Positions 631 to 33,134 of a DNA stretch of 35,606 nucleotides are shown piece after piece (the first letter of the stretch is position 1; the number at the start of each line of letters is the position of its first letter). The position numbers and the translations under genes were made by a program. The notes under the pieces are model-generated. The model made no database searches. It saw nothing but the letters and a program-made list of their open reading frames with translations, and had not been told where the DNA came from. Origin of the DNA: Verrucomicrobiota bacterium (GTDB lineage Bacteria > Verrucomicrobiota > Verrucomicrobiia > Opitutales > UBA953); NCBI GenBank assembly GCA_030831965.1, contig JAURJZ010000029.1, positions 1 through 35,606 of the forward strand. Direction: 5' to 3'.

Positions 631-633
631 GGC

Positions 634-1800: not shown

Positions 1801-1861
1801 GCATCTTATTGATGTGAAATGGTTTATATAATCAACAAAACATTCCTCCGGCATTGCCAAA
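1801..1861. promoter_or_regulatory. Divergent promoter region
   Basis: This AT-rich 61-base gap separates the leftward PP-loop gene from the rightward hemX-like gene. A perfect TATAAT lies at 1827-1832 on the plus strand. It would place transcription start near 1839, about 23 bases before the ATG at 1862. No good -35 hexamer lies 16-18 bases upstream. On the minus strand the same block reads TATAAA at 1828-1823, which would fit a start codon at 1800. Assignment is by sequence only. Confidence 0.45.
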
Positions 1862-2653
1862 ATGTCCCACTTCCTGTTTTATGGGTTTTCGATGGTCGAG
1901 TCTGCCCAACTGGGAATCAAGCTCTCCGCCGCCCTTTTCATGGGGACGGCTGCTTGGGATTGGGTGGGTCGTTCCAAGGGGTGGGCCTCGGCCCGGACGA
2001 CGCGATGGGGTCTGCGTCTGGGCTGGGTGGTCCTCACGGCATCCCTCGCCGCTCTGGGCGTCCAAGCCTTCGGCTCCCCTGGGGCCATCTTGGCCACCAT
2101 CGCCTGGGGGGCCTCGGGGCTCGCCCTTTTCCTGGACCTGACCTTCGACCACCGGCTTCCGCCTTGGTTGGTCGGATTGATCGCCGGGTTCGCCCTCTCG
2201 GGATCCGCCTTTCTCAGCCTGGTGGGAGGCGACCGCCAGCCCTGGACCGTCCTGCACGTGGCAGCCGCCATACTGGCTTACTGTCTCCTTGTCGCGCAGG
2301 CGCTCAACGCCGCGGTCTACCTTCTCCAGCATCGCGCCCTGACCACCCGACAATTCGGAGGGATTTACCAGGACCTCGATCCCCTCGTTGCGCTCGACCG
2401 CGTGGGAAGCCAGTTGCTCGGCGCCGCCATCTGGATGCTCGGACTGGTCCTTACCGTCGGCGCCGTGGCCTGGCTTCAGGGGCTCCAGGCCTCCCCCGCC
2501 AAGCTGGCCAGCGCCCTCGCCACCTGGGGCCTGGCCAGCGCCGTGCTCATGCTTCGCCGGCGCGGACGGCTTTCCGGCCCCGCCTTCGCCAAGGCCTCCC
2601 TGCTCCTCCTCATCCCGGCCGCGGCCGCGCTCCTCCTCGCCCTGCGCCGATGA
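1862..2653 (+). CDS. HemX/CcsA-like cytochrome c assembly family membrane protein
   Basis: This 263-residue, almost wholly hydrophobic protein has about eight predicted membrane segments (roughly residues 14-31, 49-69, 73-91, 102-120, 130-154, 184-205, 213-230 and 242-261). The segment around H132 (LHVAAAILAYCLL), followed by a YLLQHRALTTRQ-type loop and a D-R-x-G-x-L-G-helix, follows the pattern of the CcsA/CcmC/HemX superfamily. No WWD haem-handling motif is visible, so it is closer to HemX than to a true haem-delivery protein. It overlaps hemA by 4 bases (ATGA), and a hemX-hemA pairing is known from Bacillus, where HemX influences the level of glutamyl-tRNA reductase. An alternative start lies at 1892. 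The role is inferred from fold and neighbour. Confidence 0.7.
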   Translation: MSHFLFYGFSMVESAQLGIKLSAALFMGTAAWDWVGRSKGWASARTTRWGLRLGWVVLTASLAALGVQAFGSPGAILATIAWGASGLALFLDLTFDHRLPPWLVGLIAGFALSGSAFLSLVGGDRQPWTVLHVAAAILAYCLLVAQALNAAVYLLQHRALTTRQFGGIYQDLDPLVALDRVGSQLLGAAIWMLGLVLTVGAVAWLQGLQASPAKLASALATWGLASAVLMLRRRGRLSGPAFAKASLLLLIPAAAALLLALRR

Positions 2654-3677
2654 GAAAGGCCCGCGAGACGCTCGTGGCGCTCAGCGCCACCCACCGCACC
2701 GCCGGCCTGGATGCCCGCGCCGCCTTCGCCGTCACCCCCGAGGGGGCGGATCGCTTCTACGCCGCCGCGCGCTCGGCCGGCCTGGCCGAGGCCGTCATCC
2801 TTGCGACGTGCAACCGGCTCGAGGCCTACGTTGTCGGCGACGAGGCGGCCGCCTTGCACGCGCGCAGCGCCCTGGCCGCCGCCGCCGGCGCCGGGGCGGT
2901 CGCCATGGACACGCACCTTCGTCCCCTGCCCGGCCGGCTCGCCGTCGAGCACCTCTTCGCGGTCGCGGCCGGGCTCGACTCCCAGATGCTCGGCGAGGTG
3001 GAGATTGTCGGCCAGGTGAAGGACGCCTATGCCGACGCGCTCGCCCGCGGCATGACGGGACCTGTTCTGAACCGCGTCTTCCAAAAGGCCTTCCAGGCCT
3101 CGGCTTGGGCGCGGACCCACACCGGCATCGGCCAGGGGCAGGTCAGCCTCGGCAATGTCACCGTCGAGCTCGCCGAGCGGGCCTTCGGCCCCCTCGCCGC
3201 CGCGCGCGTCCTCGTGCTCGGCACGGGCGACGTGGGCAGGCGCGTCGCCCAGGCCCTCGTCTCGCGCGGCGCCGCCGAGCTCACCGTCGCCTCGCGCACC
3301 TTCGCCAACGCCGTGAGCCTCGCCGCCGAGCTCGGCGGCGCGGCGACCGAGCTGGCCGCCGCCCTCGCCCAGGTCCACGCCCACGACATCGTCGTCGGGT
3401 CCTCCGCCGTGGAGCGGCCGCTGCTCACGCGGGAGGCCGCGGCCGCCGCGCTCCAGCGACGCGCCGGCCGGCCCTGGCTGCTCGTCGACCTCGGCGTCCC
3501 CCGCAACATCGACCCCGCCGCCCGCCGGCTCGAGGGCGCCTACCTGGCGGACCTGGACGACCTCGCCGCCGTCGCCAACGCCAACCAGCGCGCCCGCGAG
3601 TCCGAGGCCGCGCGGGCCCGCGCCGCCCTCGCCGAGCGCGCGGCCCGCGCCTTCGACGCCACCCAGTCGCCGTCCGC

Positions 3678-3681
<4 letters not shown>
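2650..3681 (+). CDS. hemA: Glutamyl-tRNA reductase, short form
   Basis: It catalyses NADPH-dependent reduction of glutamyl-tRNA(Glu) to glutamate-1-semialdehyde, the first step of C5-pathway tetrapyrrole synthesis. Visible marks are the HRTA motif around H15, the catalytic cysteine C54 in ILATCNRLEAY, the conserved block GLDSQMLGEVEIVGQVKDAY at 108-127, and the NADPH-binding GTGDVG at 191-196. The 343-residue length is well below the usual 410-450 residues. The protein stops in the helix that would enter the C-terminal dimerisation domain, so that domain is missing or very reduced. Start and stop both sit in ATGA overlaps with neighbours, so this looks like a native short form rather than a sequencing break. 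It is translationally coupled to the hemX-like gene before it and the response regulator after it. Confidence 0.9.
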
Positions 3682-5075
<1,394 letters not shown>

Positions 5076-10171: not shown

Positions 10172-11533
10172 TCATTTCCCGATGCAGAAGGAAGCGAAGA
10201 GCTTGTCGAGCATGCGCTCGTTGTCCACCCGTCCCACGATCTCACCCAGCGAGTCCAAGCCCGCGCGCACCTGCGTGGCCGCCAGTTCCGACTCCGCCCC
10301 GCCTTTCTCAAGGTGGCGAGCGGCCGACCTCAGCGCGGCTGAGGCGGCCCGGAGGGCCGCCGCATGCCTGGCCCCCACCACCATGCCGTCTCCCGCCGGG
10401 GTCAGGTCGGCCTTTTCCAACAGTCCGGCGATCGCCGAGCGGGCGGCCTTGGCCCCCTCGGGGGAAAGGAGGTGGCATTCCACCCGCGGCAGCATCGGCA
10501 GGAAACCGGGCAGGGCAGGGTGGGGCGCCAAGTCCGATTTGTTCGCCACCACCGCCGCCCGGTCCGCCTTGAGCAGGTCGAGCAGGCGCCTCGGCAACGC
10601 CGGGGGTGGCGCGGCGCGGTCCACGACGCAGATGATGAAATCCGCCCGCTCGGCCTGGTCCAGCGCCCGCTCCATGCCCGCCCGCTCCAGCGAGCCGCCT
10701 TCCTCCCTCAGCCCGGCGGTGTCGACGGCCGTCACGCGCAGCGGCCAGCCCGTCACCTCGGCCTCGAGGAAATCGCGCGTCGTGCCCGCCTCCGGGCTCA
10801 CCAAGGCGCGCTCGCGGCCGCAAAGGGCGTTGAGAAGCGACGACTTGCCGGCGTTCGGCGCCCCGACCACCGCCAGCCGGATGCCGTCGCGAAGCGCGGC
10901 CGCATGGCGCTCCGTCGCCGCCGTCTCCTCCAGCTCGCCCGCCAATCCCAGCAGGCGCCGGCGCGGGCCGTCGGGAGCTTCCGGCGGAAGGTCCTCCTCG
11001 GGAAAATCGATGTGCGCCTCCAGCTCCGCCAACACCGCCAGCGCGCGGTCCGTCCATCCCGCCACGGTCCGCCCGAGCTCGCCGCCGAGCTGGCGCCGCG
11101 CGGCCTCGAGCGCCCGCTCGCTGTCTGCGTGGATCAGGTCGGCGACCGCCTCGGCCTGGGTGAGGTCCAGGCGGCCGTTCAGGAACGCGCGGCGCGTGAA
11201 CTCGCCCGGCTCCGCCATGCGCGCCCCGCGCGCCACGCAGTCCTCGACGAGCGCCTGCACAATCCTCGGGTTGCCATGGCAGCAGATTTCCGCCCCGGCG
11301 TTGCCGGTCGCGCTGGCTCCCCGCTCCCAGACCGTCGCCACCACCTGGTCGAGCGGGTTCCCCGCCAGGTCGCGCCAAACACCCAGCGTGGGACGACGGG
11401 CCCCGGGCGGCGCCGATCGGCCGAGCGCCGAGGTCACCCAACCCGCCGCCTCCGGCCCGTCGATCCGCACCAAGGCGAGCGCGGCCGTGCCGGCGGGCGT
11501 GGCGGGAGCGACAATGGTCTCGACGGGAGCCAT
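10172..11533 (-). CDS. mnmE: tRNA modification GTPase MnmE
   Basis: This 453-residue GTPase works with MnmG on wobble uridine modification. It has an N-terminal tetrahydrofolate-binding domain (about 1-118), a helical domain, and an inserted G domain with G1 GAPNAGKS (224-231), G2 TTRD (251-254), G3 DTAG (271-274) and G4 NKSD (331-334). It ends in the conserved CIGK (450-453), whose cysteine is required for modification. It starts divergently from the decarboxylase gene at 11627 and is followed 25 bases later by mnmG, so the two form an operon. All motifs are intact, and its GC content is high, in contrast to most of mnmG. Confidence 0.96.
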
Positions 11534-11626
11534 GCCGCATCCTGCCCCTTACCCTTGGCCTGGCGCAAGCGTAGGACAGGGAAAAGGCTGGAAGCGGCTT
11601 CCCGCCCTCGCACAGTCCGCCCTGCC

Positions 11627-12883
11627 GTGTCACGCGAGACGCCCTTCCTCACCCAAGCCCAGGCCGGCGCCATCGCCCAGGCCCACGGCACGCCCTGCTA
11701 TGTCTACGACCAGGGGCGCCTCGAGGCCCAGGCCGACGCCATGCTGGCTTTCCCCGCCGCCTTCGGCCTCACCGTCCGCTTCGCCATGAAGGCGTGTCCC
11801 AGCGCCGCCGTCCTGCGCCTCCTCCACCGCAAGGGACTCCACATCGACGCCTCGTCCGGCTGGGAGGTCAGGCGCGCCATCCGCGCCGGCTTCGAGCCGG
11901 CCCGCATCTCCCTCTCCACCCAGGAGCTCCCCGCCGACATCGCCGAGCTGCTCGCCCTCGGCATCGAGGTCAACGCCTGCTCCCTCCACCAGCTGGGGCG
12001 CATCGGCGCCGCCGCCCCCGGCCGCGCCGTCGGCCTTCGCTTCAATCCCGGCCGAGGTTCCGGCGGAACCGGCAAGACCAACGTGGGCGGATCCGACTCC
12101 TCCTTCGGCATCTGGCACGAGTGGTCCGCCGAGGCCGCCGCCCTCGCCGCCCGCCATCGCCTGCGCGTCACCCGCATCCACACCCACATCGGATCCGGCA
12201 GCGATCCCGCCGTCTGGCAGGCCGTCTCCGAATCCAGCCTCGCGCTCGTCGCCCGTTTTCCCGAGGTCGTCGCCCTCAACCTCGGCGGCGGCTACAAGGT
12301 CGCCCGGATGGAGGGCGAGAAGGGCACCGACCCCCAGGTGGTCGGCCTCCCCGTGCGCGCCGCGTTCGAGCGCTTCGCCGCCGAGCACGGCCGCCGCCTG
12401 CGCCTGGAGATCGAGCCCGGCACCTTCCTCGTCGCCAACGCCGGCGCGGTCCTCGCCCGCGTCGTCGACGTCGTCCGCACCGACACCCGCACCTTCGTCA
12501 AGCTCGACTCCGGCATGACGGAGATCCTCCGCCCCTCGCTCTACGGCGCCCAGCACCCCGTCGCCCTCTGGCCCGCCGCCGACCGGGGCCGCGCGCCCAC
12601 CGTCGTCGTCGGCCACTGCTGCGAGTCGGGCGACCTTGTCACCTGCGCCCCGGGCGAGTCCGAGACGCTCGCGCCGCGCGACCTTCCCGTTGTCGCGCCC
12701 GGCGACCTCGCCGTCATCGGCGGCGCGGGCGCCTACTGCGCGGCCATGAGCGCCAAGAATTACAACTCCTTCCCCGAGGCGCCCGAGGTCCTCCTCGGCG
12801 TCGACGGCCAGGTCCGCCTCATCCGCCGTCGCCAGACGCTCGACCAGATGCTTGCCAACGAGTCGGTGCCGGGCGACCTCTGA
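11627..12883 (+). CDS. lysA: Diaminopimelate decarboxylase-family PLP enzyme
   Basis: This 418-residue fold-III PLP enzyme probably makes lysine from meso-diaminopimelate. Visible marks are the PLP lysine K55 in RFAMKACPS, the HTHIGSGSD segment (185-193), the phosphate-binding NLGGGYK (218-224), [11 protein letters not shown] (263-273), the catalytic-cysteine motif HCCESGD (330-336), and [20 protein letters not shown] near the end. I chose the GTG at 11627 because it gives the normal N-terminus just before the YVYD strand. There is no Shine-Dalgarno. Related decarboxylases act on carboxynorspermidine, arginine or ornithine, so the substrate is not certain. It lies 3 bases before the next PLP enzyme and is probably co-transcribed with it. 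Confidence 0.75.
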
Positions 12884-12886: not shown

Positions 12887-14362
12887 ATGACCGCCGCCCG
12901 CCATCCCCTCGGCGAGGTCCTTCCCTCGTTTCCCCATGGCACGGTCGTCTCCCTGCCCACCCTGGCCGATGTCGACGGCTATGAGCGCCGGGATCCCCGC
13001 GTCTGGTCCCGCATCCGCGCCGGCTACCCGCGCTTCGTGCTGAACGAGAGGGTCGCCCTCGCCCGCGACACCGCCGCCGCGCGCCTCGGCTGGGATTCCG
13101 CCCGGTGCGTCCCCCTGCACAGCCTCCGCGCCTGCTCCCAGGCCATCGCCCTCGCCGCGCCTCGCGCGCACCGCGAGGCCGACGTCGGGGGCTGGGCCCT
13201 GATCGAGGTCGACGCGCCCTCGCTCGAGCGCCTCGCCGCCTTGGTGAAGCACGCCGGCCTTCGCCTCGGCTCCCGCGTCGCCGAGGCGTGGCTGGTCGGC
13301 GGGGCGGGGCAGGGCGGGGCCGATGGAACACTCCCGCCCGACGTCGCCCCGCATCTCCTCCCGCTCCTCGCCCCCGCCGCCCTCGGCGACATCCGCCTCG
13401 CCGCGTCGGGCATGAACGCCGTCGCCGCCGCCCTCCACGCCGCCCGCGCCGTCCAGTCTCCCAAGGGCCGCCGCGCCTGGCTCCAGCTCGGCTGGCTTTA
13501 CGTCGACACCGCCGAGCTCCTGCGGAAGACGCTCGCGCCCGGCGAGACCCTCACCGTCATCGACGATGTCGCCGACCACGCCGCGCTGGAGGCCTTTTTC
13601 CAAAGCCATCGCGGCGAGGTCGCCGCCGTCGTCGCCGAGCTTCCCAACAACCCCCGGCTTGCCTCGCCCGACGTCGAGCGCCTCGCCCGGCTCGCCCGGG
13701 CCGAGGGCGCCCTCCGCATCCTCGACCCCTCCTCCGCCGGCCTCGTCAACGTCGACCTCCTGCCCTGGGCCGACCTCCTCGTCACCAGCCTCACCAAGTA
13801 TTCCGGCCACCGCGGCGACCTTCTCGCCGGCCTCCTCGCCGTCCATCCCGCCTCGCCCGACGCCGCCGCCCTGCGGCAAGCCGCCTTCGACTGGGTCAGC
13901 CCGCTGCCGCAAGCCGACCTCGCCGCGCTCGCCGAGCAGCTGCCCGCCATGCCGTCCGTCGCCGAGGCGCAGAATCGCAACGCCTCCCGCCTCGCGGATT
14001 TCCTCGCCCGCCATCCCGCCGTCAGCCGCGTCCTCGCCGCCGACCGCGGCGCGACCGCCGCCGCCTATGCCCGCGTCGCCCGCGGCCCACGCCGCCCCGG
14101 CTCCCTCATCACCTTCGAGCTCAAGGGCGACCTCGCCGCCTTCTATGACAAGGTCGGGCTCGTCAAGGGTCCCAGCTTCGGCCTCGGCTTCACCCTCCTC
14201 GCCCCCTTTCTCTGGCTCTCCCACCATTCGCTGGTGACCAGCCCCGAGGGGCGCGCCCGCATCCGCGAGGCCGGCCTCTCGCCCGACCTCATCCGCCTGT
14301 CGGTCGGCGCCGAGCCCGCCGAGACGTTGGAGGCCGCCCTCGGCGCCGCTCTCGGCGATTGA
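12887..14362 (+). CDS. Cys/Met-metabolism-type PLP-dependent transferase
   Basis: This 491-residue protein resembles cystathionine gamma-synthase/lyase and O-acyl-homoserine sulfhydrylase relatives. The PLP lysine is K304 in VTSLTKYSGHRGDLLAG, preceded by an ELPNNPRL segment and an acidic LRILDPSSAG strand that fit the cofactor-binding core. It carries an extra N-terminal part of about 150 residues compared with classic 380-400-residue family members. Which amino acid it handles cannot be read from the sequence. Its ATG follows the decarboxylase stop after 3 bases, so both genes are likely in one operon. A role in methionine/cysteine interconversion is inferred from the family. Confidence 0.72.
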   Translation: MTAARHPLGEVLPSFPHGTVVSLPTLADVDGYERRDPRVWSRIRAGYPRFVLNERVALARDTAAARLGWDSARCVPLHSLRACSQAIALAAPRAHREADVGGWALIEVDAPSLERLAALVKHAGLRLGSRVAEAWLVGGAGQGGADGTLPPDVAPHLLPLLAPAALGDIRLAASGMNAVAAALHAARAVQSPKGRRAWLQLGWLYVDTAELLRKTLAPGETLTVIDDVADHAALEAFFQSHRGEVAAVVAELPNNPRLASPDVERLARLARAEGALRILDPSSAGLVNVDLLPWADLLVTSLTKYSGHRGDLLAGLLAVHPASPDAAALRQAAFDWVSPLPQADLAALAEQLPAMPSVAEAQNRNASRLADFLARHPAVSRVLAADRGATAAAYARVARGPRRPGSLITFELKGDLAAFYDKVGLVKGPSFGLGFTLLAPFLWLSHHSLVTSPEGRARIREAGLSPDLIRLSVGAEPAETLEAALGAALGD

Positions 14363-14393: not shown

Positions 14394-17300
14394 ATGCGAC
14401 TGCTGACCCCCCTGGCGCTGCTCTGGGCCGCGCTTTGCCCCGCCGCTCCGCGAGTCGTTGTCTCGACCGACCTCCCCGTGCCCATGAAGGCCGCCTGGGA
14501 AGGCGCCGCCGCCGAGCTTCATTGGTCCCCCCGCCCCCTCGCCGCCGATCTCGCCGGGGCCCAGGTGCTCGTCCTTCATCGCGAGCGCGCCGAGGCCCTT
14601 CCGCCCGAATCCCTCGCCGCCATCCGCGCCTTCGCCGAGCAAGGCGGCGGCGTCGTCGTCCTCGGGCATGGCCTCGCCTCGGGTGACGCCGCCTGGGGCA
14701 AGGCCGTCGCCGGCGGCGGCTGGACACCCGCCAGCCGCTCCCACGCCGAGAAGCTTCTCCTCGTCCTTCGCACCGACGAGCATCCGCTCACCAAGGACGC
14801 CGCCAGCCTCGATCTCGACGACGCCACCCTCTTCGACCTCGACCTCGCGCCCGACATCCGGGTGCTCGGCGCCGGCTTCACCCCGCGCCTCGCCAAGGGC
14901 AACGCCGTGTCGGACAAGCTCACCGTCTTCGACAGCCAGCCCCAGCTCTGGATTCACGAGAGCCCCGCCCGCCGCGCCGCCGTCCTCCTCCAGGGCAACT
15001 CCACCTCGCTCGCCCAGCCGACCGTCCGCGCCCTCATGAAGCGCGCCGCCGCCTGGACCGCGCGCCTCCCCGGCGTCGACACCCTCTGCCAACCCTCCGA
15101 GCTCGCCGAGCTCCGCTATCCCGCCGGCGGACCCAGCCGGCCCGAGCGCACCGTGCAATCCCTCCGCCTTCCTCCCGGCTTCACCGCCCGCCTCGTCGCC
15201 GCCGAGCCCCTCATCCGCAAGCCCATCGCCGTCCAATGGGACGCCGCCGGCCGCCTCTGGGTCGCCGAGACGCCCGAGTACCCCAACGGCCGACGCCCCC
15301 TCAACACCGAGGCCTGGAAGGACGGAGGCTCGCTCGTGCCCGGCGTCACCGACCGGCCCGCCCAGGACAGCATCGCCATCCTTTCCGACACCGACGGCGA
15401 CGGCGTCGCCGACCGCCGCGACGTCTTCCACCAGGGTCTCGAGCTCATCACCGGGTTCTGCCTCCACCGCGACGGCGTCATCGCCGTCGCCCAGGGCCGC
15501 GTCACCTGGCTCCGCGACACCGACGGCGACGGCAAGGCCGACCGCGAGGAGGATCTCTTCCACGGCTTCACCCCGGGCGACACCCACTTCGTCTCCAACG
15601 GCTTCACCCACGCCCCCGACGGCTGGGTCTACGCCTCCACCGGCAGCGGCACCGTCGCCACCCACCCCGCCACCAAGCGCGAGATGGCCCGCCTCTCCCC
15701 CGGCACCTTCCGCTTCCGCCCCGACGGCTCCGCCATTGAGCAGGTCGCCTCGGCCGGCGGCAACGCCTTCGGCGCCGAGGTGACCTCCGACCTCGAGGTC
15801 TTCCACAACAAGGCCACCACCGGCAACCCCATCCAGCACGTCGTCCTCCCCGAGTCCGTCCTCGCCCGCTCCGGCGGCTCCCCCGCGCGCGCCTTCCAAT
15901 CCGTCAACCCCGGCCGCCGCGTCGCCGGCGTCTCCCTCCCGACCCGCGCCCCCTACATGCAGATCGACCAAGTGGGGCGCTACACGGCCTCCTGCGCCAC
16001 GCTCGTCCTCGAGGATCCCCTCTGGCCCGCCGACTACCAGCGCAACGTCTTCCTCACCGAGCCCATCCTCGACGTCGTCTCCCGCGAGCTCCTCGTGCCC
16101 GACGGTCCCACCTACCGAGGCGACCCCGGGCCCCACGAGGGCAGGTGGCTCCACGCCGGCGACCCCTGGTTCCTCCCCGTCGCCCTCGAGCTCGCGCCCA
16201 CCGGCGAGATGGTCGTCCTCGACTTCTACTCCCCCGTCGTCGCCCACAACGACACCCGCGGCCCCCTTCACAGCCGTTCCCACGCCGCCGTGCGCCCCGA
16301 CCGCGAGCATCTCCACGGACGCATCTACGCCCTCCTGCCCCCCGGGGCCAAACCCCGCCCCGCGCCCGACCTCTCACGCGCCACCCCCGCGCAGCTCGCC
16401 GCGGCCCTCGACCACCCCAGCCGACAGGTCCGCCACACCGCCCAGCGCCTGCTTCATGAGAAGGTGGCCCAGCCGTCCGCCGAGCTCGTCGCCGCGCTTC
16501 GCGCCCATCTCGCCGGCCGCGACGAGGCCGCCATCCTCGGCCTCTGGTCCCTCGCCCGCCTCGGCGACGCGACCGACGCCGACCTCGCCCGCCTCGCCGC
16601 CTCGCCCTCGCCCGGCGTCCGGCGCAACGTCTTCCTCGTTGCCGAGTCGCTCCGACGCCCCCTGCCCGCGGCCTTGGCCAAGGCCGGCCTCGCCGACCCC
16701 GACGCGCGCGTCCAGCTCGCCGCCCTCCGCGCCCTCGGCGCCGCCCCGATGGATTCCGCCGCCGCCGCCGAGCTCCTCGCCCTCCAGGCCTCCGGCCGGC
16801 TCAATCCCTGGGCCGCCGCCGCGGCGGCCGCCGCCGCCAACGGCCAGCCCGGGCCCATCCTCGCCAGCCTTCTCGCCGCGGCCAACCCGGGTCCCGCCGA
16901 GCAGGCCCTCGCGCGCAGCCTGGCCAACGGCCTGTCATTGGATGACAAAGACACCCTGGCTGCCGTCCTCCGCGCCCTCGCCCAACCCGGCGCGCGTCCC
17001 GAACTCGCCGCCGCCACCCTCGCCACCCTCGCCAGCCGCTCGGCCCCCGCCGCGGTTCCCGCCGCCGAGCTCGCGGCCCTCGTCGCCCAGCCCGACCTCG
17101 CGCGCGCCCTTGCCGCCGCCCCCTTGGTCCGCCGCTGGGTCGAGCCCGCCGACGACATCCTGCGCGACCTCGCCCGGCGCCTCGCCGCCTCGCCGGCCGC
17201 CGAGGCCGACCCCGCCTCGCTCGCCGCGCTCCGCGGCCTCGATGCCGCCGCCGACCGCCTGCTCGACGCCGCCCTCGCGGGCCCGCGCTCGCCCGCCGCC

Positions 17301-19346
17301 GTCGACGGCCTCCTCGCCACCGGTCGCGCCGCCGACGCCGATCACCTCGCCGCGCGCCTCGGCGCCCTGCCCGCCGCGGCGCGCGCCCGCGCCGTCGACG
17401 GCCTGCTTGACCGTCCCGCCTCCGCCGCGCGCCTTCTCGACCTCCTCGCCGCCGGCAAGCTCTCCGTCCTCCAGCTCTCGCCCTACCAGAAATCCCGGCT
17501 GAGCGGCCACCCCGACGCCGCCCTGGCGCGCCGCGCCGCCGAGGTCTTCGCCGCGCTCAACGCCGGCAGCGCCTCCGCCAAGGGCGACCTCATCGCGCGC
17601 CTCCTGCCCGAGATGGCCGGCCCCGCCGACCCCGCGAAGGGCAGGGCGGTGTTCCAGCAGGCATGCGCCATCTGCCATCGCCTCGGCGACGAGGGGATGG
17701 ACGTCGGACCCAACCTCACCGGCATCGGCCTCCATCCCCCCGGCGACCTGCTCCTCCACATCGTCGATCCCAACCGCATGGTCGACGACGAGCGCCGCGC
17801 CTGGAACTTCACCCTCCGCGACGGCTCCCAGGTCATCGGCCTCGTCGCGAGCGAGAACACCTCCGGCGTCACGCTCCGCCTTCCCGGAGGCGTCGACCGC
17901 GTCCTGCCGGCGGCGGACATCGCCAAGCGCGAGCCGCGCGCCCAGTCCCTCATGCCCGAGGGCTACGAATCCCTCGGCGCCGAGGCGCTCCGCCACCTCC
18001 TTGCCCACATGCGGGCGGCCGCCAGCCCCGCCGCCGCCGGCACCCAGGTGGGCCGCCACTTCCTCGTCGACCTCTCCTCCGCCGTCACCGCCGACAGCCG
18101 CAAGGGCATCTACGCCGCCAAGTCGGCGACCGACCAAACCCTGCGCTTCCGCAGGTTCGGCGACCTCACCGCCAACGGCGTGCCCTTCCGCGTCCTCGAC
18201 CCCGCCCAGCATCCCCGCGAGGCCAACCTCATCGTCCTCAAGGGCGGGCCCGGCGACGTCTTCGCGCGCAGCTTCCCCCGCGAGGTCTCCATCCCCGTCG
18301 GCCTTGCCGCCCACCGCCTCCACCTTCTCGGCGCCGTCGCCGGCTGGGGCAGCGTTGGCGACGGCCGCACGCCGGCCATGAGCCTCGAGATCCGCCATGT
18401 CGACGGCACCGTCCAGAAAGCCGAGTTCAACGCGCGCCGCGATTTCGTCGACTACATCAATCCCGAGCTCGACGCGCCCGGCTCCCGCCAAGCCCAGGGC
18501 CTGCTCCATGCCAACCAGGTCCGCACCCTCGCGCTCGACATCCGCTCCCGCTCGCCCATCGCCGCCCTCGTCCTCCGCAGCCCCGACAACATCGTCGTCC
18601 CCACCACCGCCGCCCTCACCCTCGAGACCGAGCCGCCCCAGGGCCCCGCTTCCACCGCCGGCCTTCCGCCCGCACCCCCGCCGGCTTTCCAAGCCCGCAA
18701 GCCCGGCCTCCTCCGCGTCCTTCTCGCCGGCGCCGGCTCCTCCCACGACTTCCCCCGACACTTCCTCGGGACCGACGCCGCCACGCTCCGCGCCGCCGGA
18801 GGCATGGATGTCGCGGCCACCGGCGACGCCGACCACGCCGCCGCCCTGCTCCCCGAGGCCGATGTCCTCGTCCTCAGCGCCAACGCGCCCGAGTTCGGCC
18901 GCGAGCCCTTCCAAAAGGCGCTCAACGCCTTCGCCGACGCCGGCAAGGGCATCGTCCCCCTCCACGCCGGCGTCTGGCACAACTGGCCCAAGGAAACATC
19001 CTACAACGCCCGCTTCGTGGGCGGCGGCGCCCGCGGCCACGGCGCCGGCATCGTCACCACCCGCCTCGGCGACAAGCCCCATCCCGTCCTGGGCGACCTC
19101 CCGCCCACCTTCGCCTTCTGGGACGAGAGCTACCATGTCGAGCTCGAGCCCGGCGCCAATGTCACCGTCCTCGCCACCAACGATCCCGACGACAGGACGC
19201 GCAAGCCCCACCCCAGCGTTTGGGTCGTCGCCCATCCCAAGGCCCGCATCGTCTGCCTCTCCCACGGCCACGACCAGCGCGCCCATGAGCACCCCGCCTA
19301 CCGCCGATTGCTGACCAACGCGGTCAACTGGGCCGGCGGCCGCTGA
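14394..19346 (+). CDS. PVC-type dehydrogenase / HEAT repeat / cytochrome c / ThuA fusion protein
   Basis: This is a 1650-residue exported multidomain protein. In order it has a signal peptide (about 1-19), a ThuA/glutamine-amidotransferase-like domain (about 20-230), a PVC-type beta-propeller dehydrogenase domain (about 258-640) with two acidic DTDGDG loops (near 332 and 376) that look like calcium sites, an alanine-rich HEAT-like helical stretch (about 660-1070), and a cytochrome c domain with C1091-x2-C1094-H1095 (CAICH). These are followed by a beta-rich carbohydrate-binding-like region (about 1215-1420) and a second ThuA domain (about 1440-1650) with PLHAGVWHNW and FWDESYHVEL. Propeller-plus-cytochrome c architecture is typical of Planctomycetota and Verrucomicrobiota and is linked to sugar or glycoside oxidation; the substrate here is unknown. 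It starts 31 bases after the PLP gene. Confidence 0.85.
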   Translation: MRLLTPLALLWAALCPAAPRVVVSTDLPVPMKAAWEGAAAELHWSPRPLAADLAGAQVLVLHRERAEALPPESLAAIRAFAEQGGGVVVLGHGLASGDAAWGKAVAGGGWTPASRSHAEKLLLVLRTDEHPLTKDAASLDLDDATLFDLDLAPDIRVLGAGFTPRLAKGNAVSDKLTVFDSQPQLWIHESPARRAAVLLQGNSTSLAQPTVRALMKRAAAWTARLPGVDTLCQPSELAELRYPAGGPSRPERTVQSLRLPPGFTARLVAAEPLIRKPIAVQWDAAGRLWVAETPEYPNGRRPLNTEAWKDGGSLVPGVTDRPAQDSIAILSDTDGDGVADRRDVFHQGLELITGFCLHRDGVIAVAQGRVTWLRDTDGDGKADREEDLFHGFTPGDTHFVSNGFTHAPDGWVYASTGSGTVATHPATKREMARLSPGTFRFRPDGSAIEQVASAGGNAFGAEVTSDLEVFHNKATTGNPIQHVVLPESVLARSGGSPARAFQSVNPGRRVAGVSLPTRAPYMQIDQVGRYTASCATLVLEDPLWPADYQRNVFLTEPILDVVSRELLVPDGPTYRGDPGPHEGRWLHAGDPWFLPVALELAPTGEMVVLDFYSPVVAHNDTRGPLHSRSHAAVRPDREHLHGRIYALLPPGAKPRPAPDLSRATPAQLAAALDHPSRQVRHTAQRLLHEKVAQPSAELVAALRAHLAGRDEAAILGLWSLARLGDATDADLARLAASPSPGVRRNVFLVAESLRRPLPAALAKAGLADPDARVQLAALRALGAAPMDSAAAAELLALQASGRLNPWAAAAAAAAANGQPGPILASLLAAANPGPAEQALARSLANGLSLDDKDTLAAVLRALAQPGARPELAAATLATLASRSAPAAVPAAELAALVAQPDLARALAAAPLVRRWVEPADDILRDLARRLAASPAAEADPASLAALRGLDAAADRLLDAALAGPRSPAAVDGLLATGRAADADHLAARLGALPAAARARAVDGLLDRPASAARLLDLLAAGKLSVLQLSPYQKSRLSGHPDAALARRAAEVFAALNAGSASAKGDLIARLLPEMAGPADPAKGRAVFQQACAICHRLGDEGMDVGPNLTGIGLHPPGDLLLHIVDPNRMVDDERRAWNFTLRDGSQVIGLVASENTSGVTLRLPGGVDRVLPAADIAKREPRAQSLMPEGYESLGAEALRHLLAHMRAAASPAAAGTQVGRHFLVDLSSAVTADSRKGIYAAKSATDQTLRFRRFGDLTANGVPFRVLDPAQHPREANLIVLKGGPGDVFARSFPREVSIPVGLAAHRLHLLGAVAGWGSVGDGRTPAMSLEIRHVDGTVQKAEFNARRDFVDYINPELDAPGSRQAQGLLHANQVRTLALDIRSRSPIAALVLRSPDNIVVPTTAALTLETEPPQGPASTAGLPPAPPPAFQARKPGLLRVLLAGAGSSHDFPRHFLGTDAATLRAAGGMDVAATGDADHAAALLPEADVLVLSANAPEFGREPFQKALNAFADAGKGIVPLHAGVWHNWPKETSYNARFVGGGARGHGAGIVTTRLGDKPHPVLGDLPPTFAFWDESYHVELEPGANVTVLATNDPDDRTRKPHPSVWVVAHPKARIVCLSHGHDQRAHEHPAYRRLLTNAVNWAGGR

Positions 19347-25531: not shown

Positions 25532-27031
25532 TCACGCCTTCAGCTGGGGGCGCTTGGGGTGGGGCCAGTCGATGTGGAAGAACTCGCCCCGCGGCTTGTC
25601 GGTGCGCTCGTAGGTGTGCGCGCCGAAGAAGTCGCGCTGCCCCTGCAGCAGGTTCTGCGGCAGGCGCTCCGTGCGGTAGGAGTCGAAGTAGGCCAGGGCC
25701 GAGCCGAGGGTCGGCACGGGGATGCCGTGCTTCACCGCGAGGCCGATCACCTTGCGCCAGTTCTTCTGCGCCTTGCGCATCGTCTTCTTGAAGTGCCCGT
25801 CGAGCAGCAGGTTGGCCAGGCGGGGCTTCTTGTCGAAGGCCTCGGTGATCTTCTGCAGGAAGCGCGCCCGGATGATGCAGCCGCCCCGCCAGATCTGGGC
25901 GATCTCGCCGAAGTTCAGCTTCCAGCGGTGTTCCTTCTGGGCCTCGCGCATCAGCTGGAAGCCCTGGGCGTACGAGCAGATCTTCGAGCAGTAGAGCGCG
26001 TCGGCGATCATCGCCACGACCTTCGCCCGCTCGACCTTGCCCGTCATCCGCGGCTTGGGCCCGCGCAGCGACTTGGCCGCCGCCACCCGCTCCTCCTTGA
26101 TCGCCGACAGGCAGCGCGCGAACACCGCCTCGGCGATGGTCGGCGCGGCCACGCCCATGTCGAGCGCGTTGGCGCTCGTCCACTTGCCCGTGCCCTTCTG
26201 GCCGGCCGTGTCGAGGATGACGTCCACCAGGGGCGCGCCGGTCTCGGGGTCCTTCTGGCGCAGCACCTTCGCGGTGATCTCGATGAGGAAGGAGTTCAGC
26301 TCGCCCTGGTTCCACTCCTCGAAGACCGCCCCGATCTCGTCGGGCGTCATGCCGAGCAGGCCGCGCATCAGGTCGTAGGCCTCGCAGATCATCTGCATGT
26401 CGCCGTACTCGATGCCGTTGTGCACCATCTTGACGTAGTGGCCGGCGCCGTCGGCGCCGATGTGGGCCACGCAGGGCACGCCGCCCTTGATCGGCTTGCC
26501 GGGCTTGGCGCCCGTCAGTTCCGCGCCCGTCGCGGCGTCGACCTTCGCCGCCACCGCCTCCCAGATCGGCTTCAGCTCGGCCCAGGCCGCGGGGTCGCCG
26601 CCGGGCATGAGCGAGGGGCCGAACCGCGCGCCCTCCTCGCCGCCCGACACGCCCGAGCCGATGAAGCGGAGCCCCTTGGCCTTCAGCGCCTTCTCGCGGC
26701 GGATGGTGTCGGTCCAGAGCGCGTTGCCGCCGTCGATGATGATGTCGCCCGGCTCGAAGACCGCGGCGAGCTCGTCGATCACCGCGTCGGTGGGGCCGCC
26801 GGCCTTGACCAGGATGACCGCCTTGCGGGGCTTGCGCAGCGAGGCGGCGAACTCCGCCATCGTGCGGGCGCCGGTCAGCTTGCCCGGGGTTCCGCGGTTG
26901 GCCGCCACGAACTCGTCCGTCTTGGCCGTCGTCCGGTTGTAGACGGTGATGGGGAAGCCGTGGTCGGCGATGTTCAGGGCGAGGTTCTGGCCCATCACGG
27001 CCAGGCCGATGAGGCCGATGTCGGATTGCAT
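25532..27031 (-). CDS. gnd: 6-phosphogluconate dehydrogenase (decarboxylating)
   Basis: It oxidises 6-phosphogluconate to ribulose-5-phosphate and CO2 in the oxidative pentose phosphate pathway, yielding NADPH. The 499-residue protein starts with a dinucleotide-binding segment ([20 protein letters not shown], 6-25), then has IIIDGGNA near 97-104, [21 protein letters not shown] (126-146), and the catalytic K201 and N205 in [17 protein letters not shown]. The usual length is 468-482; the extra residues include an insert of about 20 around 168-187. The start at 27031 gives a normal N-terminus. It diverges from gltB across about 180 bases that hold both promoters. Its stop sits in a 7-bp inverted repeat, TGAGCGC (25517-25523) and GCGCTCA (25528-25534). 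Confidence 0.95.
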
Positions 27032-27210
27032 GGTTGGCAGAGGGAAGGGGCGGTGGGGCGGGGCTGGCAAACGGAAAAAACCCGCCCCCGCCCCGGGGTC
27101 AAAGTCCTTGCCTCCCCCCGTCGCTCCGCCATACGTCCACCCCCTGACGTCAACGTCCGGCGCGCCCCCCTGCCGCCGGCTCGCGCGCCGTCCCCCCTCC
27201 AGCACCGACC
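27032..27210. promoter_or_regulatory. Divergent control region between gnd and gltB
   Basis: This 179-base gap lies between the two divergent starts. It holds a palindrome TGACGTCA (27145-27152) and the short repeat ACGTCC on both sides of it (27134 and 27153). I see no convincing -35/-10 pair. The region is C-rich and G-rich rather than AT-rich. A regulatory role is inferred from position. Confidence 0.35.
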
Positions 27211-30200
27211 ATGGCCACGACCTTTCCCAACCCCTCCCCGCTCTGGCGTCCCGAGCAGGAGCGCGACGCCTGCGGCGTCGGCTTCATCGCCAACCTCCGC
27301 GGGGAGAAGTCCCACGCCCTGGTCGAGCGCGCCCTCGAGGGCCTCCGCAACCTCGCCCACCGCGGGGCCATCGACGCCGACTCCGTGACCGGCGACGGCG
27401 CCGGCCTCCTCACCCAGATTCCCCACGAGCTCATCCGCCGCCACCTGACCGGCAAGGGCAAGATCCTCCCGCGAGAGGAGGACACCGCCCTCGCCATGAT
27501 CTTCCTCCCCCGCGAGGACTACCAGCGCTCCCACGGCAAGAAGATCGTCGAGGAGGCCGTCCAGGCCGAGGGCCTCTCCTTCGTCGCCTGGCGCCAGGTC
27601 CCCGTCGACCCCGCCTGCCTCGGCAAGAAGGCCGAGCTCACCCGGCCCGACATCTGGCAGGCCGTCGTCGCCCGCAAGGCCGACGCCGAGTCCGCCATCT
27701 CCGACGACGAGTTCGAGCGCCGCTGCTTCCTCGCCACCAAGGTCGCCGAGCGCCGCGCCGCCGAGGCCCGCGTCGAGGGCTTCTACATCTGCTCCTTTTC
27801 CAGCCGCACCGTCACCTACAAGGGCCTCTTCAACGCCCCCCAGGTCCGCAAGTTCTACACCGACCTCAAGGACCCCGCCTTCGCCACCGCCTTCGTCCTC
27901 TTCCACCAGCGCTTCGCCACCAACACGCTGCCCGACTGGACCAAGGCCCATCCCTTCCGCTGCATCGCCCACAACGGCGAGATCAACACCATCCGCGGCA
28001 ACCGCAACATGATGCGGGCCCGCGAGTTCTCCGACATCTCCGGCAAGTGGGGCGAGCGCTACGCCGACCTCCGGCCCATCATCCAGCCCGGCATGTCCGA
28101 CTCGGCGTCGTTCGACAACGCCTTCCAGCTCCTCGTCGCCGACCTCCCCCCCGCCAAGCGCTGCGGCATCGTCGCCGCCTCCATGATGATGCCCGCCGCC
28201 TGGGAGAACGACCCCCACCTCCCCGGGCGCGTCCGCAACTTCTACCACTACCAGTCCCTCGTGATGGAGCCCTGGGACGGCCCCGCCGCCGTCGTCTTCA
28301 CCGACGGCCGCCTCGTCGGCGCCTCCCTCGACCGCAACGGCCTCCGCCCCCTCCGCTACAAGCAGTACGCCGACGGCACCGTCGTCGCCGCCTCCGAGGC
28401 CGGCCTCATCGCCTCCTGGGGCTCCCCCGTCGTCCGCGCCGGCCGCCTCGGCCCCGGCCGCATGTTCGCCCTCGACCTCGCCGCCGGCCGCTTCCTCGAC
28501 GACGCCGACTGCAAGCAGGTCCTCGCCGACCGCCGCGACTACGGCGCCTTCCTCCGCGACGCCGTGCTCGACCTCCACGGCCTCGCGCGCGGCAAGCCCG
28601 CCCCCGCTCCCGCCGGCGACACCCTCCCGCTCCAGCTCGCCTTCGGCTCCGACCTCGAGGAGCGCGACCTCATCCTCGCGCCCATGGCCAACACCGCCCA
28701 GGAGGCCGTCGGCTCCATGGGCGACGACACCCCGCTCGCCGCGCTCTCCCGCCGCCCCCGGCTCCTGCCCACCTACTTCAAGCAGCTCTTCGCCCAGGTC
28801 ACCAACCCGCCCATCGACCCCATCCGCGAGTCCTTGGTCATGTCCCTGACCAACTACCTCGGCGGCCAGATCGGCATCTACGAGACCCTCCAGGACAAGC
28901 GCACCTTCCTCCAGGTCGACACCCCCTTCCTCCTCCCCGCCGAGCACGCCGAGATCCCCGTCCACTTCGCGGCCAAGCTCCTCGACCTCGACGCCACCTT
29001 CGCCGCCGCCGCCGGACCCGGCGGCCTCGAGCCCGCCCTCCGCCAGCTCGGCGAGGCCGCCGTCGCCGCCGTCCGCGACAAGGGCGTCCGCGTCGTCCGC
29101 ATCTCCGACCGCGCCACCTCCGCCGCCCGCGCCCCCATCCCCGCCCTCCTCGCCGTCGGCTTCGTCCACCAGTCCCTCGTCCGCGCCGGCCTCCGCCTTC
29201 GCTGCGGCATCGTCGTCGAGACCGGCGAGGCCCGCGACGTCCACCAGCTCGCCTGCCTCATCGGCTACGGCGCCACCGCCGTCTTCCCCTGGCTCGCCTA
29301 CGAGGTCGTCCGCGACCTCCACGCCGGCGGCAAGCTCGACCCCAAGCTCGACCTCGCCAAGGCCTTCGAGAATTACCGCAAGGCCGCCGGCAAGGGCCTG
29401 CTCAAGATCATGTCCAAGATGGGCATCTCCACCCTGCTCTCCTACCAGGGCGCCCAGGTCTTCGAGGCCCTCGGCGTGGGCGACAAGGTCATCGCCGACT
29501 GCTTCGACGGCACCCCCTCGCCCATCGGCGGCGTCGGCTACGAGGAGCTCGCCGGCGAGACCCTCCGCCGCCACGCCCGCGCCTTCGCCCAGCCCGCCTC
29601 CGAGCTCCCCAACGAGGGCTGGTACCTCGTCAACAAGAAGGGCGACGGCGAGGCCCACGGCTGGAACCCCAAGGTCGTCGCCGGCATGGGCAAGTTCCTC
29701 AAGTCGGGCGGCGACGCCGCCGGCTGGTCCGAGTGGCGCGCCGCGGCCGACGAGCACGCCCCCGTCACCCTCAAGGACCTCCTCGCCTTCAACTTCGCGG
29801 CCAAGCCCGCCGACCTCGCCGAGGTCGAGCCCGCCTCCGCCATCCGCCGCCGCTTCACCACCGCGGGCATGTCCCTCGGCGCGCTCTCGCCCGAGGCCCA
29901 CGAGTGCCTCGCCATCGCGATGAACCGCATCGGCGGCAAGTCCAACTCCGGCGAGGGCGGCGAGGATCCCCGCCGCTTCCGGCCGCTCGACAACGGCGAC
30001 AACGCCAACTCCGCCATCAAGCAGGTCGCCTCCGGCCGCTTCGGCGTCACCGCCGAGTACCTCGCCTCCGCCAAGGAGATCGAGATCAAGATCGCCCAGG
30101 GCGCCAAGCCCGGCGAGGGCGGCCAGCTCCCCGGCCACAAGGTCTCGCCGCTCATCGCCACCCTGCGCTACTCCGTCCCCGGCGTCACCCTCATCTCGCC

Positions 30201-31734
30201 GCCGCCGCACCACGACATCTACTCCATCGAGGACCTCGCCCAGCTCATCTTCGACCTCAAGTGCGTCAACCCGCGCGCCAAGGTCTGCGTCAAGCTCGTC
30301 TCCTGCTCCGGCGTCGGCACCGTCGCCGCCGGCGTGGCCAAGGCCTACGCCGACGTCATCCTGGTCTCCGGCCACGAGGGCGGCACCGCCGCCTCGCCGC
30401 TCTCCTCCGTCAAGAGCGCCGGCTCCGCCTGGGAGATCGGCATCGCCGAGGCCCACCAGGTGCTGATGATGAACGACCTCCGCGGCCACGTCACCCTCCG
30501 CACCGACGGCGGGATGAAGACCGGGCGCGACATCGTCATCGCCGCCATCCTCGGCGCCGAGGAGTTCAACTTCGGCACCGCCGCCCTCATCGCCGCCGGC
30601 TGCGCCATGTTCCGCGTCTGCCACCTCAACACCTGCCCCGTCGGCGTCGCCACCCAGCGCGAGGACCTCCGGGCCAAGTTCCGCGGCAAGCCCGAGAACG
30701 TCATCCACTTCTTCAACGCCGTCGCCGAGGACGTCCGCGCCATCCTCGCCAAGCTCGGCAAGCGCTCGCTCGACGAGGTCGTCGGCCGCACCGAGCTCCT
30801 CCGCTTCGTGCCCGACGCCGACAACCCCAAGACCGCCCGCCTCCGGCTCGACCACCTCCTCTTCGACCCCGACCCCGCCGGCGACGCCGCCCGCATCCAC
30901 ACCCGCGAGCGCAACAACCCCCCGGGCCACGACCTCGTCGTCGACGACATCGTCCTGCAGGACGCCCGCCACGTCCTCGTCCACAAGGGCCCCGGCTTCT
31001 CCGCCACCCACAAGGTCCGCAACGTCCACCGCAACATCGGCACCCGCCTCGCCGGCGAGATCGCCTACCTCCACGGCAACAAGGGCCTCCCCGAGGGCCT
31101 CATCGACCTCACCTTCGAGGGCAGCTCCGGCCAGTCCTTCGGCACCTTCTGCGTCCAGGGCATGCGCCTCCGCCTCCTCGGCGAGGCCAACGACTACGTC
31201 GGGAAGGGCATGAACGGCGGCGAGATCATCCTCCGCCCCGCGGCCGACGCCGCCTTCCCCTGGCACGAGAACATCATCATGGGCAACACCTGCCTCTACG
31301 GCGCCACCGGCGGCACCCTCCTCGCCGCCGGCCGCGCCGGCGAGCGCTTCTGCGTCCGCAACTCCGGCGCCACCGCCGTCGTCGAGGGCCTGGGCGACCA
31401 CGGCTGCGAGTACATGACCGGCGGCACCGTCGTCGTCCTCGGCCCCGTCGGCCGCAACTTCGGCGCCGGCATGTCCGGCGGCCTCGCCTTCGTCTGGGAC
31501 CCCGACCGCCGCCTCGACACCCTCCTCAACCCCGAGATGGTCGAGCTCCGCGACGTCCCCGCCGCCGAGTCCGACGCGCTCCGCGCCCTCGTCTCCCGCC
31601 ACGCCGAGGCCACCTCGAGCCCCCACGCCAAGGCCCTCCTCGCCGACTGGCCCAAGACCCTCGCCGCCCTCCGCCGCGTCACCCCCATCGGCAGCGAGGC
31701 CACCCTCGCCGCGCCCGCCGTCGCCAAGGCCTGA
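27211..31734 (+). CDS. gltB: Glutamate synthase large subunit
   Basis: This 1507-residue enzyme transfers the glutamine amide to 2-oxoglutarate. Domains in order: a class II glutamine amidotransferase whose catalytic Cys is C21 (RDACGVGF) after a short propeptide, with conserved H-Q-R-F-A-T-N and HNGEINT blocks; a central domain; an FMN-binding TIM barrel (about 810-1190) with [13 protein letters not shown]; 3Fe-4S ligands C1131, C1137 and C1142 in [12 protein letters not shown]; and a C-terminal beta-helix (about 1260-1480) rich in G-x-N-G repeats. Length is standard. No gltD (small subunit, electron input) is adjacent, because miaB follows; the small subunit or a ferredoxin partner must be encoded elsewhere. 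The start ATG lacks a Shine-Dalgarno and follows a C-rich leader. Confidence 0.97.
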
Positions 31735-31742
31735 GCCCAGGC

Positions 31743-31784
31743 GCGCCGCTCGGCCGAGGGCGCGGCGCGGTTTCCCGGAAACCG
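31743..31784 (+). terminator. Tandem hairpins between gltB and miaB
   Basis: Two stems follow the gltB stop. GCGCCGC (31743-31749) pairs with GCGGCGC (31762-31768) around a TCGGCCGA-containing loop, and CGGTTTC (31768-31774) pairs with GAAACCG (31778-31784) around CCG. They share base 31768, so only one may form at a time. No T-run follows, so this could be a weak terminator or an mRNA-stabilising structure. Confidence 0.45.
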
Positions 31785-31805
31785 CCCCCGCCCCCTTACC
31801 TCCCC

Positions 31806-33134
31806 ATGCACCGCGTCCACATCCGCACCTACGGATGCCAGATGAACGAGCGCGACTCCGAGGGCGTCGCCGCCCTCCTCCGCGCCAAGGGCTATGTCGT
31901 CCAGGATGACGAGGCCGGGGCCGACATCGTCCTGGTCAACACCTGCTCCATCCGCGGCCTCGCCGAGGAGAAGGCCATCGGCAAGGCCGACCACCTCCTC
32001 CGCGCCCGCCGCGAGGGCCGCGGCCCCCGCCTCGTCGGCATCCTCGGCTGCATGGCCCAGAACCGCGGCGCCGAGCTCCTCGACCGCCTGCCCGACCTCG
32101 ACCTCGTCGTCGGCACCCAGCGCCTCCGCCACATCCCCGACCACCTCGGCCGCCTCCTCGCCGACCCCGCGCCCGCGCGGCGGATCGACCTCGCCGAGGA
32201 GGCCGGCTTCGAGGACGCCCTCCCCGGCCGCGCCGACGGGCGCCAGGTCGCCGCCTTCGTCAGCATCCAGCAGGGCTGCGACATGCGCTGCGCCTACTGC
32301 GTCGTCCCCCGCACCCGCGGCCCCGAGCGCTCCCGCCCGCCCGAGTCCATCCTCGCCGAGATCCGCGCCCTCGCCGCCGCCGGCACCCGCGAGGTCACCC
32401 TCCTCGGCCAGATCGTCAACCAATACGGCCGCGGCTCCCAGCGCGCCGAGGGCGGCCTCTCCCCCTTCGTCCGCCTCCTCCGCCAAGTCGCCGCCATCCC
32501 CGGCATCGACCGCATCCGCTACACCGCCTGCCACCCCATCGGCTACCGGGCCGACCTCGTCGCGGCGCACGCCGACATCCCCGAGCTCTGCGCCCACGTC
32601 CACCTCCCCTTCCAGTCCGGGTCCGACCGCATCCTCCGCGCCATGCGCCGCCCCTACCTCGCCGAGCGCATCCGCCGCCTCGCCGCCTCGCTGCGCGCCG
32701 CCCGCCCCGGCCTCACCCTCTCAACCGATGTCATCGTGGGCTTTCCCGGCGAGACCGACGCCGACTTCGCCCAGACCGAGTCGCTCTTCCGCGAACTCGG
32801 CTTCGAGCACGGCTTCCTCTTCAAGTACTCCCCCCGCCCCGGCACCCCGGGCCACGCCCTCGGCGACCCCGTCCCCGCCCCCGACAAGGAACGCCGCCTC
32901 GCCCGCCTCCAGGAACTCCTCGCCCTGCGCTCCTCCACCGAGAACCTCCGCCAAATCGGCACCACCCAGTCCGTGCTCGTCGAGGGACCCGATCGCCGCG
33001 GCGGCCGCCTCATGGGCCGCACCGAGAACGAGCGCCGCGTCATCCTCGACGGCCCCTCCTCCCTCATCGGGCACATCATCCCCGTCCATGTGACCGCCGC
33101 CGGCCAAACCTACCTCGAGGGCAAACCGGCCTGA
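31806..33134 (+). CDS. miaB: tRNA-2-methylthio-N6-dimethylallyladenosine synthase MiaB
   Basis: This radical-SAM methylthiotransferase adds the 2-methylthio group at A37 of tRNAs that already carry i6A. The 442-residue protein has the N-terminal UPF0004 domain with the second cluster cysteines C11, C47 and C82, then the radical SAM cluster C158-x3-C162-x2-C165 (CDMRCAYC), and a C-terminal TRAM domain (about 375-440). These are the three marks of MiaB. Early conserved text is RTYGCQMNERDSE. The start at 31806 gives the standard N-terminus and lacks a Shine-Dalgarno, like its neighbours. It lies 71 bases after gltB, and a small membrane-protein gene follows after 21 bases. Confidence 0.95.
   Translation: MHRVHIRTYGCQMNERDSEGVAALLRAKGYVVQDDEAGADIVLVNTCSIRGLAEEKAIGKADHLLRARREGRGPRLVGILGCMAQNRGAELLDRLPDLDLVVGTQRLRHIPDHLGRLLADPAPARRIDLAEEAGFEDALPGRADGRQVAAFVSIQQGCDMRCAYCVVPRTRGPERSRPPESILAEIRALAAAGTREVTLLGQIVNQYGRGSQRAEGGLSPFVRLLRQVAAIPGIDRIRYTACHPIGYRADLVAAHADIPELCAHVHLPFQSGSDRILRAMRRPYLAERIRRLAASLRAARPGLTLSTDVIVGFPGETDADFAQTESLFRELGFEHGFLFKYSPRPGTPGHALGDPVPAPDKERRLARLQELLALRSSTENLRQIGTTQSVLVEGPDRRGGRLMGRTENERRVILDGPSSLIGHIIPVHVTAAGQTYLEGKPA

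Follow-up and report, generated by a model that had tools for sequence, protein, structure and literature searches.

What kind of protein is encoded by the very long reading frame at the centre of this stretch of Verrucomicrobiota DNA (35,606 nucleotides, hereafter the window), and what could a haem protein that carries a ThuA domain at each end do? The frame runs from an ATG at 14394 to a stop codon ending at 19346, giving 1,650 aa, and its homologues align with it in one frame, over nearly the whole length, at 47-58% identity, so it is a real gene. A chance ORF or an assembly fusion was ruled out by the identical layout in many separate assemblies. The domains follow in the order ThuA, DUF7133 (the PVC-type core), a HEAT-like stretch, a one-haem cytochrome c, a beta-sandwich and a second ThuA (Table 1). 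The initial annotation of this DNA had claimed ThuA domains at both ends and a cytochrome c domain among those between them. Both ends score above the Pfam cut-off, as does the cytochrome c, which holds a single CxxCH motif, and the product (here called the giant protein) is confirmed as a haem protein with ThuA at each end. It is probably exported, judging from its first residues; the A-A-P that would open the mature part is invariant or nearly so in an alignment of 23 sequences (A1).

Table 1. Features of the giant gene (positions in the window; residues of the encoded protein)
Feature	Residues	Positions	Strand	Basis or remark
Whole gene, giant haem protein	1-1650	14394..19346	+	1650 aa; homologues aligned over about full length
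Putative signal peptide	1-18	14394..14447	+	Basic residue, hydrophobic run, A-A-P; judged by eye
N-terminal ThuA domain, motif residues lost	17-225	14442..15068	+	Pfam, model, alignments
DUF7133 / TIGR02604 core, most conserved part	250-647	15141..16334	+	Pfam, NCBIfam
HEAT-like stretch	660-1065	16371..17588	+	HEAT match below cut-off; low conservation
Cytochrome c domain, TIGR02603	1078-1207	17625..18014	+	Pfam, NCBIfam
CxxCH haem-binding motif	1091-1095	17664..17678	+	Sole CxxCH in the protein
Beta-sandwich domain, AziU3-like fold	1206-1425	18009..18668	+	Predicted structure
C-terminal ThuA domain, motifs intact	1433-1650	18690..19343	+	Pfam, profile, alignment

When the full-length protein was scanned, the Pfam ThuA model matched two stretches, the best at residues 1467-1647 (E 2.5e-31). 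Scored alone, the C-terminal domain reaches 86.1 bits against a cut-off of 33.4, and its profile matches the solved ThuA-like proteins 4jqs and 4e5v. Profile matches to designed Pizza6 propellers were taken as artefacts. The motif residues of this domain, H1451, H1524, H1563, D1577-E1578, Y1580 and G1625-H1626, are retained in 64-66 of 66 sequences, in agreement with the intact core motifs described for it initially. At the other end, residues 17-245 alone pass the ThuA threshold only barely (PF06283; 34.1 bits, cut-off 33.4, E 4.4e-8); the corresponding piece of a relative from the same genus (L009) scores 49.3 bits. An AlphaFold model of the N-terminal piece was built from an alignment of 23 relatives (pLDDT 76, pTM 0.80; residues 102-112, 119-131 and 143-165 below 50 pLDDT). 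Its closest structural match is the ThuA-like protein 1t0b (Z 14.6, rmsd 3.4, 178 residues), and 4e5v, also ThuA-like, gives Z 14.0. The Pfam score and these fold matches thus place a ThuA fold at residues 20-230, where one had been predicted.

Active-looking ThuA domains share a motif set of first His, elbow His, DE, Tyr and GH. The N-terminal domain of the window has lost the first His, the elbow His, the Tyr, the GH and the Glu, so its description as divergent was correct for the window. The complete set is present in 0 of 29 rows from the window's family (the window included), with the first His, Tyr and GH gone from every row and the elbow His retained in seven. Most other families do not share this loss: of 53 genomes from outside the window's family, 45 keep elbow His, DE, Tyr and GH. 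In the alignments, the motif loss is specific to the window's lineage and one or two groups of family f30, and both ThuA domains look active in most other lineages. The N-terminal domain is also the least conserved part, with a mean identity to the window of 0.40 over 25 rows (0.52 for the C-terminal ThuA and 0.64 for the core). It is not drifting freely, since 31 alignment columns are invariant in 23 sequences (an alignment that takes in about 20 linker residues), and probably persists as a structural relic in the window's lineage. The absence of a full motif set from the family, yet with these columns invariant, would also suit a protein in which ThuA serves as a structural adaptor at either end and catalysis is left to the core alone. 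We consider this quite unlikely, given the near-complete retention of the motif residues in the C-terminal domain and their survival in the N-terminal domain of most other-family genomes.

The two ends are not copies of one another. A phylogeny of 90 ThuA domains (36 N-terminal, 33 C-terminal and 21 others) resolves a clade of C domains and a clade of N domains, both supported at 100/99. This marks the two as separate ThuA subfamilies and rules out a tandem duplication. The N clade also includes two free-standing ThuA proteins from the window's family. One of them, intact, comes from the window's own genome (L005, identical with L173), and there it may carry out the chemistry of the N-terminal domain. 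Motif residues are present in all 30 free-standing N-type proteins read. Such copies occur in 35 of 79 family genomes (the match in G053 is partial); among the 29 family genomes for which the fused N domain could be read, 25 have one. The other four, all with a decayed domain, yielded no free-standing copy (G002, G004, G049, G061), and none was found in the genus mates G002-G005, which carry the giant protein. Outside the family, where copies were called by match and without a tree (E under 1e-40, ORF under 450 aa), they were detected in 6 of 53 genomes: three of the eight whose fused N domain is decayed and three of the 45 in which it is intact. With family and other genomes taken together, a free-standing copy accompanies 28 of 37 decayed vs 3 of 45 intact N domains (Fisher p 5e-11; p 0.038 outside the family alone), in tests that count genomes singly, ignore kinship and have only about two decay events behind them. 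These events are placed in the tree in the family together with L145/L152 and in a second group within f30 (L134, L148, L156). The free-standing copies branch with the intact N domains of other families, apart from the decayed ones of the window's family. This position contradicts a hand-over in which the family's own N domain was cut loose; instead of a detached domain, the free-standing protein may represent a copy that is older or was acquired.

Between the two ThuA domains, DUF7133 matches residues 250-647 in Pfam (E 6.5e-92), and TIGR02604 matches residues 262-646 with 179 bits against an NCBI cut-off of 122.2. In DUF7133, 42% of positions are invariant in 25 family rows, and many charged residues are invariant across 38 class-wide sequences. 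Compared by sequence with the PDB, DUF7133 gave no solved relative, PQQ glucose dehydrogenase-like propellers included (best E 0.36); the words 'dehydrogenase' and 'propeller' in the initial annotation are names that the PVC family has inherited. As for the HEAT-like domain of the initial annotation, a single HEAT match was obtained, below the Pfam cut-off (21 vs 23.5 bits). The cytochrome c is recognised both by Pfam (residues 1081-1127, 22.4 bits, cut-off 21.3) and by TIGR02603 (residues 1078-1207, 112.8 bits, NCBI cut-off 68.15), and all 85 homologue rows have CxxCH in their cytochrome domain. The carbohydrate-binding-like domain proposed for the following segment is modelled as a beta-sandwich (pLDDT 88) that is closer to AziU3 (Z 16.3) than to any carbohydrate-binding module listed (Z 8.3 or less). 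For residues 1206-1425 the module label found no support in Pfam, and the likeness is distant and of fold only. The sandwich is dispensable, being missing from six homologues.

How widely is this architecture distributed? Among the relatives searched, 84 of 141 genomes (the window's own counted) contain some match, and many genomes of the same family match the giant protein over nearly its whole length. Thirty homologue loci carry names; 29 are labelled Verrucomicrobia, Opitutia/Opitutae, Opitutales or Opitutus, while the remaining locus, L043, lies on a MAG contig that bears the name Polynucleobacter. The class was searched in a sample of 384 genomes with the homologue L068 (genome G139, family f8), and 198 of them match some part of the query. 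Among the matches listed, the giant protein was counted in 65 genomes from 39 genera and 21 families. It was called on match strength, with a best E of 1.5e-139 or lower and the next best at about 1e-75, and for 57 of these genomes the order of domains was read as well (all but G213, G247, G293, G306, G329, G334, G346 and G356). In a phylum sample of 387 genomes, 22 of the matches listed reach E 1e-80 or lower, every one within the class; in one of them (G328) the match is confined between the ThuA ends. The query itself, at 896-5026 on the minus strand of its locus, has its N-terminal ThuA match split over two frames, probably by an assembly frameshift.

We read architectures with our own domain profiles on 85 homologue rows with a core, taken as stop-to-stop ORFs. 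Both ThuA domains are present in 69 of these rows. The order ThuA-core-cytochrome-sandwich-ThuA is found in 63, and six are identical save for the absent sandwich (L068, L088-L091 and L096, the last counted as a holder although only the start of its C-terminal ThuA precedes the contig end). The C-terminal ThuA is absent from the ORF in 16 rows. Seven of these are truncated where the contig or the fetched stretch ends (L011, L030, L031, L034, L035, L122, L151), and in three it is a separate adjoining ORF (L133, L140, L152). In the last six, which represent five genes (L142, L145, L155, L156 and one gene entered twice, as L098 and L157), it was not found; for L142, L145, L155 and L156 it was not found in further downstream DNA either. 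Two ThuA domains in one chain are recorded in 21 families, comprising f8 and all but one of the 21 families in the class sample; the exception is f89, where the layout is split.

The genome of the window (1.85 Mb) contains 11 DUF7133 matches and 10 matches to the 3-keto-disaccharide hydrolase family PF06439. Of seven sister DUF7133 proteins scanned, two have this hydrolase in the same chain, two a GDSL match below the Pfam cut-off and one an NPCBM domain. Fusion of a core with ThuA is seen in seven further loci of other genomes (L204-L206 and L208-L211), and three of the fused ThuA domains (L165 = L204, L182 = L205, L175 = L206) lie outside both the N and the C clade, which indicates that such fusions arose more than once. 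Neighbouring genes were surveyed in the 16 lake-type loci for which flanking DNA was available and the giant ORF had been located; several of these loci are cut on one side, and one representative was scanned per neighbour cluster. A Dabb gene lies directly 3' of the giant gene in 13, and nearby are a periplasmic binding protein (10) with a matching permease (9), GFO_IDH_MocA (8), a GMC oxidoreductase (6) and Gluconate_2-dh3 (6). A second PVC-core ORF stands upstream of the giant gene in seven loci. In a related MAG, the upstream ORF of L050 (2899-6624, plus strand) combines 3-keto-disaccharide hydrolase, GDSL, DUF7133, HEAT and cytochrome c. The PF06439-fused sisters and the neighbours in related genomes make plausible the link that the initial annotation drew between ThuA-type sugar chemistry and c-type electron transfer, a link that, like every mechanistic step beyond the domains themselves, we infer. 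Its overall interpretation thus stands for the two ThuA domains, the haem and, as a plausible reading, the sugar link; the middle domain is better described as AziU3-like, and the N-terminal motif loss as confined to particular lineages.

The window's gene has housekeeping, regulatory and efflux genes as neighbours, namely MnmE/MnmG, a LysA-like gene, a PLP enzyme, TetR, an efflux set and glutamate synthase. The lake-type sugar-related genes were not found around it, which counts against the sugar reading. The PLP enzyme directly upstream (12887-14362, plus strand) scores 269 bits to NF042918 (BesB), whose cut-off is 800, and is probably another relative from Cys/Met metabolism. The ORF at 10364-12883 (plus strand) matches LysA only from about residue 428, and its first part overlaps MnmE on the opposite strand (10175-11533), so the LysA-like gene likely starts near 11,640. 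Most of the 2062-aa ORF at 26946-33134 (plus strand) overlaps glutamate synthase (27211-31734, plus strand) in another frame; only its 3' end is genuine and corresponds to a UPF0004/radical SAM/TRAM gene.

The presence of GMC oxidoreductase and Gluconate_2-dh3 genes near the lake-type loci raises the question of where oxidation would take place. The core and the cytochrome c could act as a scaffold or electron carrier for another exported enzyme of this kind, with the ThuA domains and the sandwich merely binding glycans. Such an arrangement would fit the failure to find a solved DUF7133 relative by sequence, and the sandwich and the decayed N-terminal ThuA do resemble binding or structural parts. 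The conservation of DUF7133 with its invariant charged residues is, however, what is expected of a catalytic core, and the motif residues of the C-terminal ThuA are strictly retained; we regard a scaffold role as rather unlikely.

The tightest genomic association of the giant protein is with two families that correspond to the halves of a Tm-1-type protein, PEP_hydrolase-like and UPF0261. We know of no bacterial reaction for either family, and to our knowledge neither is a sugar enzyme. In L040, the region upstream of the giant gene encodes an AraC regulator, a TIM barrel of the PEP_hydrolase-like family and UPF0261. In 16 twenty-kb regions from the class, a PEP_hydrolase-like match is nearby in seven, AraC in six and UPF0261 in four; in genomes with the giant protein outside the window's family, a PEP_hydrolase-like gene lies within 2 kb (between ORF ends) in 14 of 60. 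Across the class sample of 384, the PEP_hydrolase-like gene is present in 65 of 65 genomes with the giant protein vs 28 of 319 without, and UPF0261 in 65 of 65 vs 33 of 319, at a presence threshold of E 1e-60 or lower that admits a few matches only about 50% identical in the genomes lacking the giant protein. By genus, the PEP_hydrolase-like gene accompanies 39 of 39 with the giant protein vs 14 of 133 without; all of these are plain genome and genus counts that ignore kinship. In the window's family, 40 genomes have both, five the giant protein only, two the PEP_hydrolase-like gene only and 32 neither. The five exceptions among 45 family genomes with the giant protein count against a pathway link, as do the 28 class genomes in which the PEP_hydrolase-like gene occurs with the giant protein absent. 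In the window's genome each family is found at one place, both on contig C95 outside the window, where the stretch 13-3572 (L267) holds the 3' end of another HEAT and cytochrome c-like ORF, with the PEP_hydrolase-like and UPF0261 genes directly behind it. Their placement on a contig other than that of the giant gene also counts against the pathway reading. Co-occurrence of the two Tm-1 halves in bacteria is already on record in the accessible text of PMC5028733. A paper on a fusion of ThuA with a PVC haem protein, or on a link to UPF0261, was not found among the open-access matches listed (titles and abstract starts).

With partners that are not known sugar enzymes in 65 of 65 genomes, the substrate might not be a glycoside at all, and the giant protein might oxidise something else in the periplasm, such as a sugar acid or an aromatic compound. 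The sister proteins fused to 3-keto-disaccharide hydrolase and the sugar-type neighbours in related genomes point the other way, and we hold a non-glycoside substrate to be unlikely. Our preferred reading, which we judge to be about evenly poised between right and wrong, is that the giant protein is an exported PVC-type haem protein oxidising a sugar or glycoside in a keto-sugar pathway, with the C-terminal ThuA acting on the product. The DUF7133 core would take electrons from a ring hydroxyl, most likely yielding a 3-keto sugar, the c-type haem would pass them on, and the C-terminal ThuA would process the keto product, which the Tm-1-type pair would probably take further in the cytoplasm.

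A broader proposal is tentative, and we treat it as possible rather than probable: the giant protein would be the periplasmic front end, and the Tm-1-type pair the cytoplasmic back end, of an undescribed class-wide keto-sugar system. Two different ThuA enzymes would then sit on one haem-oxidase chain, the N-terminal one having become a relic in one lineage, where a free-standing protein of the same subfamily would supply its activity. PVC bacteria carry many PVC-type haem proteins of unknown function. The recurrent class-wide layout, the Tm-1-type partner and the 3-keto hydrolase sisters together offer a concrete substrate class to test, and the giant protein could reveal at once what DUF7133, ThuA and the bacterial relatives of plant Tm-1 do.

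Among known systems, the planctomycete-specific cytochrome c (PSCyt) proteins of freshwater Verrucomicrobia are comparable in being multidomain c-type cytochromes from lake bacteria of this group, some of which include carbohydrate-binding modules (PMC5615132). That source, in its accessible part, describes PSCyt1-3 with PSD1-5 domains and does not mention ThuA fusions (PMC5615132). The PVC-type heme-binding CxxCH proteins (TIGR02604 with TIGR02603) are closer: both models score above their cut-offs in the giant protein, and core, HEAT-like part and cytochrome follow in the order of the sister proteins. The giant protein differs from them by a ThuA domain at each end and by the AziU3-like sandwich, in place of which some of the scanned sisters have the hydrolase, GDSL or NPCBM parts described above. 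With the ThuA family (PF06283; 1t0b, 4e5v, 4jqs) it shares both ends, the N-terminal one matching in the fold of its model and the C-terminal one by profile (4jqs, 4e5v). It departs from that family in having ThuA joined to haem-protein domains and, within the window's lineage, in an N-terminal domain that has lost the motif residues. A further parallel concerns LacA and LacC, which belong to the GMC and Gluconate_2-dh3 families. The two families recur near the giant gene in related genomes, as PF06439 does in the sister proteins. In the Caulobacter 3-keto-glycoside route, as given in the accessible part of its description, a LacABC-type periplasmic 3-dehydrogenase works with DUF1080 (PMC9007349). 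The likeness lies in a presumed periplasmic oxidation that feeds a 3-keto hydrolase (PMC9007349), and the difference in the presumed oxidising core of the giant protein, which would be DUF7133 with a fused cytochrome, ThuA taking the place of DUF1080.
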